Source of the DNA: Roseococcus pinisoli
GTDB taxonomy: Bacteria; Pseudomonadota; Alphaproteobacteria; Acetobacterales; Acetobacteraceae
DNA: 64,000 bases
Direction of reading: 5' to 3'
Assembly (NCBI RefSeq): GCF_018413645.1
Contig: NZ_JAHCDA010000002.1
Location: 992,001 to 1,056,000, forward strand
This document shows, in pieces, positions 20,725-35,383 of this stretch. The translations under genes were made by a program, and so were the position numbers. The notes beneath the pieces are model-generated. The model made no database searches, was not told the DNA's origin, and saw only the letters and a program-made list of their open reading frames with translations. How positions within the stretch are numbered: position 1 is the stretch's first letter; each line of letters opens with the position of its first letter.

Positions 20725-22690
<1,966 letters not shown>

Positions 22691-22786
22691 ATGGCTGAAC
22701 CCTGCGCCGCTTCGACGGGAGATGTCAATGGATCGAGAAGGCCGCGGCGCCGTGGCTTTGCACAGGCGCGCCGCGACGCGAAGCGG

Positions 22787-30717: not shown

Positions 30718-31305
30718 TCATGGCCAGGACGCCTTGAGGGCCCGCGGGATCCATCGGCGCCCGGCGACAGTGCCGAGGCAGCGCCGCAGGGCGCGGAGCC
30801 AGGCGATTCCGCGCGCCTTCCTTCGCCGAGTGACCGGCAGGAGCGCCGGAAACGGCAGGGCAAAGAGCTTTTCGGACAAAATGGGGTCGGCAACCAACCA
30901 GGGCGGGGCCGGCAGGGCGCGCTTCAGGTTGAGGCGGCGGATAAGGGTGATGAGGCGCAGGCCCCGGATGCGGATGGCACGGCGGGCGGCGCGGCAGATC
31001 AGGCCTTCCAGGCGGCGGAGGGGGTGATCCGCGGGCGCGCTGGAGAGCGCGATGAGAAGACGTTCCCAGAGGCCGGCATGGGTGAGACGGCGGAAATGGC
31101 GGGCGATGGTGTCGTGATTGCCGTAATGCCTGGGGAGTTCACGCCAGGGGCCGTCGGTGGCGGCGAGGCGGAAGATGGCGTTGAAGTGAGCCCGAAGGTC
31201 GCAGGGGCGGCCGCGGGTGGTGGTGTTCGGGAGGTGGGGTAGGACGGCCTGCCACTCGGCATCTGAGAGAGGGGTGAGGGGGATGCGGAGGGAAGCGAGC
31301 ATCAC
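30718..31305 (-). CDS. Solitary transposase-like protein (IS5-type N-terminal domain)
   Basis: 195 aa. Residues ~12-85 resemble the N-terminal DNA-binding domain of IS5-family transposases (LSDAEWQAVLPHLP, RGRPCDLRAHFNAIF, WRELPRHYGNHDTIARHFRR). No DDE catalytic domain follows; the rest is Arg/Leu-rich and unrecognised. I found no terminal inverted repeats or target duplication around it, so it is not shown to be an intact insertion sequence. It marks the right end of the hpn-splitting island, and its base composition is GC-rich like the chromosome. Confidence 0.55.
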   Translation of the reverse strand: MMLASLRIPLTPLSDAEWQAVLPHLPNTTTRGRPCDLRAHFNAIFRLAATDGPWRELPRHYGNHDTIARHFRRLTHAGLWERLLIALSSAPADHPLRRLEGLICRAARRAIRIRGLRLITLIRRLNLKRALPAPPWLVADPILSEKLFALPFPALLPVTRRRKARGIAWLRALRRCLGTVAGRRWIPRALKASWP

Positions 31306-31553
31306 TTATATAGGAATAATGTCCAAATAAACGCAAGAAAATTTCCTCTGATAGGACGCCTTCCACCCTCCACATTGCGACGACAAAGTAACTTGAAATG
31401 GCCGGTAGCGGTCTGGCGGCTTCTGACCCCGGAACTCGCCGAAGCGGAAACTCGAACCGCCGGCCCTCTCCTGCCGATGCTGACGATTTGGATAAGTTAG
31501 CGTTCAAATCTGTAACACGTCGAGCAAGTTCGGCTCCAGCACAGACCTGATAT
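31306..31553. other. AT-rich spacer between transposase-like and nuclease-like genes
   Basis: About 250 bases with visibly lower G+C near the left end (tataggaataatg and similar runs). No convincing gene. It may hold the promoter of the transposase-like gene and the end of the nuclease-like transcript. Confidence 0.4.
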
Positions 31554-32306
31554 TCAGCGCCGATCAAACTCCTGCCCAACCGCAGACCGCAGCAGCTCGA
31601 CCAACTCGACGCGGTTCGACGATGCCGATGCCGACCGGAGAAGATGATCAAAATCTACCAGAAGTCCTGCGTTGCGACGCGGGTTCAGCAATAGCACGTC
31701 CGACCAAATCTCGCTGTTACTCTCAACGGTTCGCGCATAGCGCAGCAGCCAATACATCAGCACCTGACGGAAGTCGCCCGCGCCAAAGTTGTGCTCGGCG
31801 TGCTTGACCTCGATTAACGTCGAGCCAATCGCGAAGTCCCCATTGCCGGATGCCACCCAGCCGAGGCCGGGAATGAGGGGCGCATGTTCCAGAATTGCAG
31901 ATGGTCGCTGAGCCCCGACGCTGTTCAGCATCGCCACCAGATTGCGAGCGGCATGATCGGCAACGAGTATATCACTTGGCTCGAGTTTTTCCGGGATGCG
32001 CGCATCGAAATGGCGACGCTGGCGCTTCGATGCGACCGCTAGGCATTCATCCCACGACGCCACCGCCCCGCCCCGCAACTCACTCTCGGCGCGCGCCATG
32101 GACAGTTCGAACATCATCGCCTTCTGCAACCGACTTCTCTCGATAATCTCGCTCGGGATGGGGCTGATACCGGAGAAGGAGAACATCTTCGCGTTGAGGG
32201 CGTTGACGAGGCCGCCAGTCAGTCGCGGGAAGAGAATGTCGAGAACGCCGGGGATGTCACGCGCGACGGTCCTCGGGTCTCGGACCGACAATCGGCTAAA
32301 TCGCAT
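31554..32306 (-). CDS. PD-(D/E)XK nuclease-like protein paired with the reverse transcriptase
   Basis: 250 aa, not assigned to a named family. The C-terminal half has GNGDFAIGSTLIEVKHAEHN, which fits the D-x(n)-E-x-K core of PD-(D/E)XK nucleases, followed by an amphipathic helix with a Gln (DFRQVLMYWLLRYA) as in many such folds. The N-terminal half is helical, with LFPRLTGGLVNALNAKMF. The ATG at 32306 lies inside the end of the reverse transcriptase gene (11-base overlap), so the two are co-translated. A nuclease partner or effector of the RT is inferred. Confidence 0.65.
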   Translation of the reverse strand: MRFSRLSVRDPRTVARDIPGVLDILFPRLTGGLVNALNAKMFSFSGISPIPSEIIERSRLQKAMMFELSMARAESELRGGAVASWDECLAVASKRQRRHFDARIPEKLEPSDILVADHAARNLVAMLNSVGAQRPSAILEHAPLIPGLGWVASGNGDFAIGSTLIEVKHAEHNFGAGDFRQVLMYWLLRYARTVESNSEIWSDVLLLNPRRNAGLLVDFDHLLRSASASSNRVELVELLRSAVGQEFDRR

Positions 32307-33924
32307 GCTTGACCCAGTCTTCGTAGCAGGCCGCAAAGCTGCCCGGTGCGCCGGTCTCGATCCCCAATTGCCAAGCCTTCGCGAGCGAACCGCGCAGTTG
32401 GTCCCTTGTCTTTAAGCCTTCGTCGCCGAACGCGCCTGCCGCCAGCCATAGCGCCCGCTGTTCGCCGGCACCAAGATTCTGCCATTGGTTGCGCAAACGG
32501 GTGAAGTTCGACCGATCGGCCCAATACCTCCAGCAGTCAATGCAGGCGCGCCGGACCGAGGCGGATGCCGTTGCAGCGTAGGTCTGACGGACGAAAGCGC
32601 CGCGAAGATCAGTCCTAGTGAAGCGAAGCGCGCGCAGGAAATGCAGCATATTGGCTTCGGGCACGAGCAGGTGACCGCCAGCGGCCGGGATCCGGTCGAG
32701 CAAAGCGTCGATCTCGGCGAAGATCGATGTGAACTGGTCGTTCGACCGGACGGCATATACTCCGCGCATGATTTTCGACCAGGAGGCACGGAACGAGTCC
32801 AGATTTTTCGGGTCGAGGAGCGTGGCGCACAGCTGAACCGCGACAGCTGGCTCCTGAAACTTGAGTGCACGACCGATCTGCGCAAGCACGAAGGCATCGG
32901 GCTGCGACTTCTCCCGCTCAAGATCGAGCAGAAACGAGATGTCGATCTTCTCGAAAGAATGTTTCAATTTTTCATATTCGGCACTCGCATTGTCCGAGTA
33001 TGGATCAAAATGCAGGTCGAGTTCTCGCAACGCGAGACTCGAATCCTCACCCTCTCCCAACTGCGCTGAAACGAAATCTCTATAATGTTTGGCGCTAAGG
33101 ATGGTCGTCTTGCTGCGATTGAGCGAAAGGCCATAATCGGCCAACGCATGCGATAATTCGGAGAGCGCCTTGTAGGCGTCCTGCTGCGAGCGGCAGATCA
33201 AGGTGTAGTCGTCGACATAGCGGTGCCAGATGACCCCGGCGTCGGTTAGCGACCGATCGATCGGCGTCATCATCACTTCGGCCAAAATGCGCGCGCATTG
33301 ACCGCCGACCGGGAGACCAAAAGAACGGCCTGCCGCGAGCTTGCTCAGAATGCGATCGATCTGCATCGCTAGGGTTGACCCCGGCGAGAGGTCTTTCACA
33401 ACATTCTCAAGCCGATGGTGGTAGATGTGCTCGTAGAAGCTCGCGACATCAGTCTGTATAACAACAGCGCGTTCTTCTTCCAGATCACGCTCGTTCAACG
33501 TCGCGAGCTTATAGGCGCGCCACGACTTGGTTCGGTCGAAGAAGCCCGGCCCCTGCGGTGCTAGCCGGTAGGAGTGCGCGCGGGCGCTCCGTTGCCCTTC
33601 GTTCTCCTCCGCGATCGCCAGGCCCAAGCCATTCAGATAGAGGTTCCAGAAGGGATGTATCTTGGTGGTGATGCGGAAGCCATGCGGCCCGGACGGAACG
33701 AGCAGGCGTTCCGCCACGATCGCTAGTCCATTCATGAAGTTTGCTGGTTTTCCTAGCGTGCCGGTCTCAACACCCTGAAACAAGGCCAAGCAAATCGCCG
33801 CGAGATCGGAGGCCTTGTCCTTGATGAAGGCCGCGTCCAAGTCATAAGGCAACGTGTCGTTTTCGCCGCTATGACCGATCTCAAGCGCTGCCCGAAAAAA
33901 ATGATCTTTCTCAATCTTGACCAT
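32296..33924 (-). CDS. Reverse transcriptase, candidate defence-associated (DRT/UG-like) type
   Basis: 542 aa RNA-directed DNA polymerase. Motif A is TDVASFYEHI (Asp159), motif B GLPVGGQCARILAE (about 203-216), motif C RYVDDY with Asp238-Asp239, and motif D YGLSLNRSKTTIL (about 264-276). There is no maturase (domain X), HNH or integrase domain, so it is not a group II intron or retroelement RT. The last ~230 residues look like helical repeats, as in UG/Abi RTs. Base composition is clearly less GC-rich than the chromosome. It is followed by an overlapping nuclease-like gene and preceded by a hairpin-rich gap. Confidence 0.88.
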   Translation of the reverse strand: MVKIEKDHFFRAALEIGHSGENDTLPYDLDAAFIKDKASDLAAICLALFQGVETGTLGKPANFMNGLAIVAERLLVPSGPHGFRITTKIHPFWNLYLNGLGLAIAEENEGQRSARAHSYRLAPQGPGFFDRTKSWRAYKLATLNERDLEEERAVVIQTDVASFYEHIYHHRLENVVKDLSPGSTLAMQIDRILSKLAAGRSFGLPVGGQCARILAEVMMTPIDRSLTDAGVIWHRYVDDYTLICRSQQDAYKALSELSHALADYGLSLNRSKTTILSAKHYRDFVSAQLGEGEDSSLALRELDLHFDPYSDNASAEYEKLKHSFEKIDISFLLDLEREKSQPDAFVLAQIGRALKFQEPAVAVQLCATLLDPKNLDSFRASWSKIMRGVYAVRSNDQFTSIFAEIDALLDRIPAAGGHLLVPEANMLHFLRALRFTRTDLRGAFVRQTYAATASASVRRACIDCWRYWADRSNFTRLRNQWQNLGAGEQRALWLAAGAFGDEGLKTRDQLRGSLAKAWQLGIETGAPGSFAACYEDWVKHAI

Positions 33925-34023
33925 TCCGGACCTTTTCTTACGTACTATGAATGGCGAGGATTGCAGCCCTCCGTCTCGCCTGTGTTTGTAGCTTTCAATG
34001 TTGCGTGTCTAGTGGTGGGCAGC

Positions 34024-34203
34024 GCGAGGCGCCCAGTGGCTTGTCGGCCACTTGGCTCGCAATGTAGGCGCCCGCTTCTGTTAAAGCGTCGCGAAGTGCG
34101 GTTAGGCAGGCGATGTCCCCAATTTCGACTGCTACGCCCTAGATTCGTCCGTTGTGAACGAACGTCGGCTTTCGCAATCTCCTCCGCCGGCACTGAACGG
34201 CGG
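34024..34203 (-). ncRNA. Candidate structured RNA upstream of the reverse transcriptase gene
   Basis: The 310-base gap 33925-34234 before the RT start has no convincing gene but several inverted repeats. 34024-34060 holds GCGAG and AGTGGC arms pairing with GCCACT and CTCGC around TTGTCG. 34146-34164 is an 8-bp hairpin (one G-U pair on the minus strand) with a 3-nt loop. 34184-34203 is CCGCCG / CGGCGG with an 8-nt loop. Some DRT systems carry a template ncRNA just here. That this is one is inference. Confidence 0.35.
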
Positions 34204-34214
34204 CAATGGGCGCA

Positions 34215-34234
34215 AAGCGGAGTTACAACCGCTT
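34215..34234 (-). terminator. Hairpin directly after the radical SAM stop
   Basis: Stem AAGCGG / CCGCTT with an 8-nt loop, adjacent to the TAG of the radical SAM gene and followed on the minus strand by TTG. It may end that gene's transcript or form part of the structured region before the RT gene. Confidence 0.4.
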
Positions 34235-35383
34235 CTAACTCGCGCTCACCAACCCCTTAAGCCGCTTCCCATGCCCCATGATGGCCGCGATCGATCCCAG
34301 GTTCCGCCGGTCGGCCAGGCTCTTCAGCGCCGCGCCGACCTTCCCCTCGCGCAATCTCGCGAAGCTGTCGCCTAGCGAGACGGAAAAGTGCAGCATGATG
34401 CTAGCGTCGCGGTAGCAGTCGGTCGTGCAGGACTGGCAGACCTCGCGCATCATCTTGTCGGGCGAGAAATCCCAGACCTTGGAGATGGGCGCCTTCCAGT
34501 CCTCGCAGCGCCAGAGGTCGTAGTTCCAATCCAGATAAAAGTACTTGTAGCCGGCGTGGCAGATGAAGCGCTCGCCCTCGCCCGTCAGGCGGCGGCGCAT
34601 GTCGGCGATGCCCTCGCGCGGGTTATGGACGGGGATGATGTCGCGGACGGACTGCGCGCCGTCGAAGGCCGCGATCAGCTCCTCCTTGGACATGTCCACG
34701 AGGTCGCTGTCCTCGGAATAGACCAGCGAGGAGGAGCCCAGCGCCGCCTTGCGCGGATAGGAGAAGGTGACGGCCTCGAAGCCCAGCTCCCGCAGGAAGT
34801 GGCCGAGCGCCTTGTAGTCGCGGATCAGCCGCGTCATCGCCACCGAGGCGATGGGGGTGATGTTGAGCTCCTTCAGGCGCTTGGTGCTCTTGCGGATGCG
34901 GTCGCAGACGCCCTTCAGGCCGCGGTTCTTCTCGTGCAGCCCCTCGTCGTCGCTGTCGATCGAGATGAAGAGCGTGCTGAGGCCGGTATTGGCCAGGGCC
35001 TCCAGCTTCTGGGGCAGGTTCCAGCCGTTGGTGACCAGCGTGGGCTGGATACCCATCTCGGTCGCCTGGGTGACCATCTGGATGATCTTGGGGTGCAGCA
35101 GGGGCTCGCCGCCCATAAAGGTGACGAAGCGGACGTTCGCCTTCTCCTTCATGATGGTCATGGATTCCTCGAACCGCGCGGCATCCAGCCAGCCGCGGTG
35201 GGTCACGAAGCCCTTGTTGTGCGCGAAATTGCAGAAATCGCAGGTCGCGTTGCACATGTTGGTGACGGAGACGTTGCAGATCGCAGGCCCCCCACTGGGG
35301 ACCAGTCGCACCAGATCCATGAAGCCGGTCTTGTTCACGGCCCGGACGGGGGTGGTCGCGGGCGCGATGGCAGTCGCAGTCAT
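34235..35383 (-). CDS. Radical SAM protein of unassigned function, hopanoid-linked
   Basis: 382 aa. The cluster motif CNATCDFC lies near residue 45, then FMGGEPLLHPKI and ISIDSDDEG, a normal radical SAM barrel. A C-terminal cysteine cluster (CEDWKAP, CQSCTTDC) suggests a SPASM/twitch-like auxiliary Fe-S site. It lacks a B12 domain and does not match adenosylhopane synthase HpnH or methylase HpnR blocks. The ATG overlaps the hpnL-like stop (ATGA). A role in lipid or hopanoid tailoring is inferred only from hpnL and hpnJ nearby. Confidence 0.75.
   Translation of the reverse strand: MTATAIAPATTPVRAVNKTGFMDLVRLVPSGGPAICNVSVTNMCNATCDFCNFAHNKGFVTHRGWLDAARFEESMTIMKEKANVRFVTFMGGEPLLHPKIIQMVTQATEMGIQPTLVTNGWNLPQKLEALANTGLSTLFISIDSDDEGLHEKNRGLKGVCDRIRKSTKRLKELNITPIASVAMTRLIRDYKALGHFLRELGFEAVTFSYPRKAALGSSSLVYSEDSDLVDMSKEELIAAFDGAQSVRDIIPVHNPREGIADMRRRLTGEGERFICHAGYKYFYLDWNYDLWRCEDWKAPISKVWDFSPDKMMREVCQSCTTDCYRDASIMLHFSVSLGDSFARLREGKVGAALKSLADRRNLGSIAAIMGHGKRLKGLVSAS

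Follow-up and report, generated by a model that had tools for sequence, protein, structure and literature searches.

The window, i.e. the whole stretch of 64,000 nt from Roseococcus pinisoli that was analysed, carries on its minus strand two overlapping genes, coding for a reverse transcriptase (RT) and, immediately downstream, for a predicted nuclease partner. The features of the locus, in window positions or RT residues, are the following.

32296..33924, minus: Drt8 reverse transcriptase, 542 aa, ATG start, frame intact
31554..32306, minus: RTasPDDEXK partner, 250 aa, predicted RecB/Cas4-type PD-(D/E)XK nuclease, ATG at 32306, frame intact
32296..32306, minus: overlap of RT and partner genes, exactly 11 bases
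RT residues about 1-290: RT domain, from the structure model
RT residues 301-317: flexible loop with Y309 and Y317, a low-confidence stretch of the model
RT residues about 329-539: helical-repeat C-terminal domain, from the model
32998..33000, minus: codon for Tyr309, within a DPY motif; the residue is a candidate for protein priming and is the same in 46/46 aligned Drt8-family RTs
31400..34173, minus: likely transferred unit, 84.5% DNA identity to Beijerinckia mobilis (L030)

The preliminary description of this DNA had pointed out the motifs of both proteins and the 11-base overlap, and these readings were confirmed: in the RT, the first residues of TDVASFY, GLPVGGQ and YVDD are 158, 203 and 236, respectively; in the partner, GDF occupies residues 156-158 and EVK residues 166-168; the overlap spans 32296-32306 and suggests translational coupling. 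An alternative, earlier TTG at 32336 would give a partner of 260 aa; the partner relatives, whose own starts were picked by script, align from the ATG at 32306. A search of the genome itself with the RT as query returned one copy, and the named neighbours of the pair are HpnL, a radical SAM gene, an IS5-like transposase and HpnJ.

Both proteins were compared with the PADLOC library (2023 version). The best family for the RT was Drt8 (E 5.8e-149, residues 3-540 of 542), far ahead of the second-best, RT_UG21 (E 7e-30), and the partner matched RTasPDDEXK, a profile filed under DRT (E 5.7e-70, residues 9-247 of 250). Pfam gave RVT_1 plus a sub-threshold RdRP_1 on the RT and no match on the partner, while the NCBIfam matches of the RT contained no Drt8 model and none that reached its own cut-off. 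Among these, a retron identity was considered and rejected, the scores being 40.1 bits against a cut-off of 235 for NF038233 (retron_St85) and 16.1 against 450 for NF038237. Relative to DRT8 (PADLOC Drt8 plus RTasPDDEXK), which we take to be the same as UG7, the pair is alike in both proteins, their order, their overlap and their catalytic motifs, with no essential difference. We are therefore almost certain that it is a standard, well-formed member of DRT type 8, and we predict an anti-phage role for this copy. The introduction of a 2025 paper (PMC12596737) gives a PD-(D/E)XK domain as characteristic of DRT8, and passages of two 2026 papers (PMC13213688, PMC13314766) state that DRT8 confers phage resistance by a mechanism not yet settled. 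Hence the proposal that the two genes form an undescribed defence system fails, since the RT is Drt8, its partner is RTasPDDEXK and that introduction ties DRT8 to PD-(D/E)XK; in fact, placement of the RT in an established DRT type to which this partner already belongs is what the preliminary description had itself named as refuting its proposal.

A scan of genome contigs produced 38 related loci, 35 of which carry the partner downstream of the RT. These are all the testable ones (35/35), because in L039, L040 and L043 the contig ends at or just past the RT match, so that they were kept outside the pairing count. The two genes overlap by 4-14 bases in 33/35 related pairs (with start codons chosen by script), the exceptions, L020 and L026, having broken frames. 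The distances among RTs and among partners co-vary, with a Mantel r of 0.958 over 34 pairs against 0.310 for the best of 2000 permutations. In a hand-picked set, synonymous codon choice was near the codon-usage prediction while the amino acids were conserved, both for 19 near RTs (0.378 observed vs 0.337 expected) and for 18 near partners (0.342 vs 0.317). The full-length profile matches, the recurring order and overlap, the co-varying distances and the amino acid conservation indicate that the pair is no chance finding.

The close relatives belong to Acetobacteraceae, Beijerinckiaceae, Rhizobiaceae, Aurantimonadaceae and Sphingosinicellaceae; some of them are metagenome bins and some are plasmid-borne. 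The wide family spread together with the plasmid copies implies that the unit moves between lineages. A phage-borne element was also considered and rejected, as scans of viral contigs and phage records gave no relative. Two of the related loci have further genes of interest: in L018 a second RT, Drt4/Drt3b-like, lies downstream of the DRT8 pair (L018:3291-4811), and on a Rhizobium plasmid an annotated ABC-three-component system, a defence-type neighbour, lies just upstream of it (L044:2175-4944).

In R. pinisoli the pair was acquired horizontally into a variable spot. Conservation with genomes of the same genus ends at 31341/31355 and at 34219-34241, in agreement with the limits of the likely transferred unit. 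For this survey a flanking gene was matched in 25/41 genomes, own genome included (E <= 0.001); besides the own genome, ten matches had E <= 1e-197, of which two ran off the contig end, two had no adjoining HpnJ and six had both flanks. The region 31356-34218 of the window, flanked on one side by the radical SAM gene that adjoins HpnL and on the other by HpnJ, is a variable cargo hotspot, holding other DNA in 6/6 of the same-genus genomes with both flanks (L084-L089). This cargo was of defence type in 4/6, with part of the frames scanned: clear defence genes in two genomes (AriAB-like, Drt6), and in two others the pairs helicase plus methyltransferase and kinase plus PP2C. The hotspots of L084 and L089, which gave no match, may hold unrecognised defence genes. 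A fragment of an IS5-like transposase lies at the hotspot edge (window 30718-31305, minus), in DNA common to L084 and L087.

The RT alignment (A2) comprised 34 rows, the incomplete RTs of L035, L037, L039, L040 and L043 being omitted, and the partner alignment (A1) comprised 35 rows, L020 being left out for its split partner (188 aa). L026 was retained despite its broken RT frame (502 aa) and broken partner. The catalytic D159, D238 and D239 are invariant in the aligned RTs. The RT model gave near full-length fold matches to DRT6, DRT4 and AbiK, i.e. Class 1 Abi/DRT enzymes, and its helices run through residues 329-539, as a helical-repeat (alphaRep) C-terminal domain, in line with the UG/Abi-type RT with helical C-terminus of the preliminary description. 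We think it quite probable that the RT belongs to Class 1 of the UG/Abi enzymes and that its synthesis is protein-primed. Its modelled architecture of RT plus helical repeats is that of DRT6 and DRT4, but these are described as single-gene systems in the relevant passage of PMC13213688, whereas here a nuclease is co-encoded. The candidate priming role of Tyr309 is proposed by analogy with the priming tyrosines of AbiA, which lie in a flexible loop of the same type. The excerpts on AbiA likewise place a conserved tyrosine on a flexible loop that links the RT-like domain to the helical one, and mention no nuclease partner, whereas the pair here has one; the sequence match to AbiA is very weak (17.9 bits against a profile cut-off of 250).

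In the partner, D157 and E166-x-K168 are invariant across the alignment, and so is Q181-x3-Y185. Its model adopts a RecB/Cas4-type fold, that of the AddA/AdnA/MGME1/EXO5 nucleases, and the D, (D/E)xK and QxxxY motif residues were found on this matching fold; the PD-(D/E)XK nuclease reading made earlier is thus borne out at the level of a predicted structure. Foldseek by itself returned two matches at E <= 0.001, both to ACE1, while the sequence alone (P0002) found no solved-structure relative and its profile gave three rows, with no E-value better than 0.056 and no RecB/Cas4-type nuclease among them. The partner resembles AdnA, AddA, MGME1, ACE1, EXO5 and Cas4 in fold and in the D, ExK, QxxxY set, but differs from RecB/Cas4-type nucleases in having one cysteine and an almost invariant DPRTVAR segment near the N-terminus (35 partner rows). 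Since the iron-sulphur cluster of the Cas4/AddB kind requires four cysteines, the partner would not carry one.

We also searched the locus for an RNA component. Rfam gave no match at the locus of the pair; its sole match in the window was a TPP riboswitch (22587-22697, minus, 71.7 bits). In L007, L021 and L008 (RTs 86, 83 and 80% identical), DNA similarity to the window extends no further than 6-12 bases upstream of the start codon, a quick decay that argues against a shared RNA gene. Other relatives share more: L045 has 44 bases, L006 and L044 have about 100 each and L030 (RT 91%) has about 250, which keeps a small RNA possible. The flanks of the pair folded no better than shuffled sequences (z 0.00 and -0.12), and no flank was common to the close relatives. 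An RNA element hidden in the coding frames was rejected as well, the top synonymous-constraint windows having z 3.5 (partner) and 2.6 (RT), values that are not compelling when so many windows overlap. An RNA that is short or purely structural could have gone undetected.

We considered as Drt8-profile RTs, in samples of 398 genomes of the phylum and 385 of the class, those reaching E <= 1e-40. They were found in 4/398 and 6/385 genomes, respectively, corresponding to nine different genomes, own included. The nuclease is present in three of the nine, namely the own genome, L059 (RTasPDDEXK E 1.1e-65) and L060 (1.3e-53), while the partner profile, which could miss remote kin, found none in the fetched flanks of L047, L048, L049, L061, L062 and L063. 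The nuclease-like neighbour is thus kept in every testable locus of the window's own branch, but not beside these 6/9 sampled RTs, and in related branches the RT can apparently work without the nuclease. In the tree, L059 and L060 group with the six partnerless RTs, apart from the window's branch (98/98), which suggests either nuclease loss or two gains; the tree omits L035 and L037, and the choice is blurred by the very long branches of the outgroups and of two partnerless RTs. The window's pair falls in one of two nuclease-bearing branches of DRT8, and the PADLOC Drt8 profile also catches nuclease-free RTs. With the partner profile, three further, weak hits came up among the 398 genomes (E 3.2e-9, 2.0e-4 and 7.8e-4); these are probably other PD-(D/E)XK proteins, since their fetched loci held no Drt8-like RT.

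Some of the partnerless RTs have neighbours of their own. A gene matching NOV_C (PD-(D/E)XK-like, E 1.3e-11) lies about 1.3 kb downstream of one of them (L049:10390-11130). Two others lie just downstream of a HerA/DUF87-type ATPase (L048:5008-8861 and L095:621-4533), the ATPases being 85% identical over 714 aa and the RTs 93%; no such ATPase was seen in 7 further loci of clades II and III. ATPase and Drt8-profile RT possibly form a different two-gene unit. L048 also has an AbiEii-type gene downstream.

Naturally broken loci bear on how the two proteins depend on each other. L018 and L020 each have a damaged nuclease frame next to an RT frame of normal length; the shortened nuclease frames still cover the catalytic motifs and may, from their sequence, be functional despite the damage. 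On a Comamonas plasmid (L094:2729-5657), RT residues 1-248 are gone beside an IS3 element and the nuclease gene is intact; as this nuclease persists without a working RT, the RT is no strict antitoxin of a freely active toxin. These loci, a very small sample from partly draft assemblies, speak against either the RT or the nuclease being freely toxic.

Our search of the open-access literature, with subscription papers and most preprints outside its scope, found no DRT8 mechanism in print. The two 2026 papers cited above, in the same passages, also list DRT1 as unresolved, although the later one appeared after a paper on the structure of DRT1 (PMC13275509); lists of this kind can therefore be out of date. 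The link drawn in the preliminary description, in which DNA made by the RT acts with the nuclease, is plausible. Precisely, template-free, protein-primed DNA from the RT likely controls the nuclease, which would serve either as effector or as built-in restraint. Most RecB/Cas4-type nucleases are exonucleases and shorten DNA from its ends, a habit that fits a restraint role as well as an effector role. We give about an even chance to the nuclease being an effector gated by the RT. In that case, the RT would synthesise, with no template, DNA attached to its own Tyr309; either this product or the RT assembly that carries it would keep the RecB-like partner idle; phage infection would disturb this hold and free the nuclease, which would then attack DNA, of phage or host, and end the infection. 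We favour this model on three grounds: the nuclease is inherited together with the RT in the window's branch, it is catalytically intact, and a table of PMC10952713 lists a further effector domain, Cap17, for DRT8. The partnerless RTs of related branches count against it.

The opposite role, possible but distinctly less probable, is that the harm in this defence comes from the Tyr309-linked DNA itself, which the RT would make constantly and the partner constantly degrade in uninfected cells; phage proteins inhibiting such nucleases, or capping DNA ends, would let it build up and cause shutdown. The predicted AddA/AdnA/MGME1/EXO5 fold agrees with this, and excerpts on other types offer parallels, with host RecBCD limiting DRT3 (PMC13174585), ExoI limiting DRT9 and the related UG17 (PMC12483538) and phage ORF55 shielding the DRT4 product from exonucleases (PMC13314766). 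The existence of partnerless Drt8-family RTs counts against it, as do the damaged nuclease frames of L018 and L020, although these keep the catalytic motifs; restraint is perhaps not strictly needed there, and host nucleases could substitute. It is unlikely that the nuclease is neither killer nor brake and instead trims or releases the RT product to its working form: the close pairing, overlap and co-evolution of the genes and the modelled exonuclease-type fold would suit such processing, but nothing specific favours it, and DRT4 and DRT6, as single-gene systems in the passage of PMC13213688, have no such partner. The layout of RT plus effector resembles that of retrons; nevertheless, a retron-like toxin-antitoxin unit with an undetected RNA template is very improbable, given retron profiles far under cut-off (retron_St85), flanks with neither a common stretch nor a fold signal, and Class 1 Abi/DRT enzymes as the nearest full-length folds.

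As a catalogued pair, the locus adds no new system. It offers new detail, namely residues and a testable model, for a type whose mechanism is not established in the cited passages of the two 2026 papers, and it narrows what can be claimed for DRT8: an RT of Class 1 type by its model and with Tyr309 as candidate primer, flanks in which no RNA was detected, a predicted RecB-type nuclease with named catalytic residues and two opposite roles for that nuclease. If the restraint role were true, DRT8 would encode within itself a safety nuclease, a job done by host nucleases in DRT3, DRT4 and DRT9.
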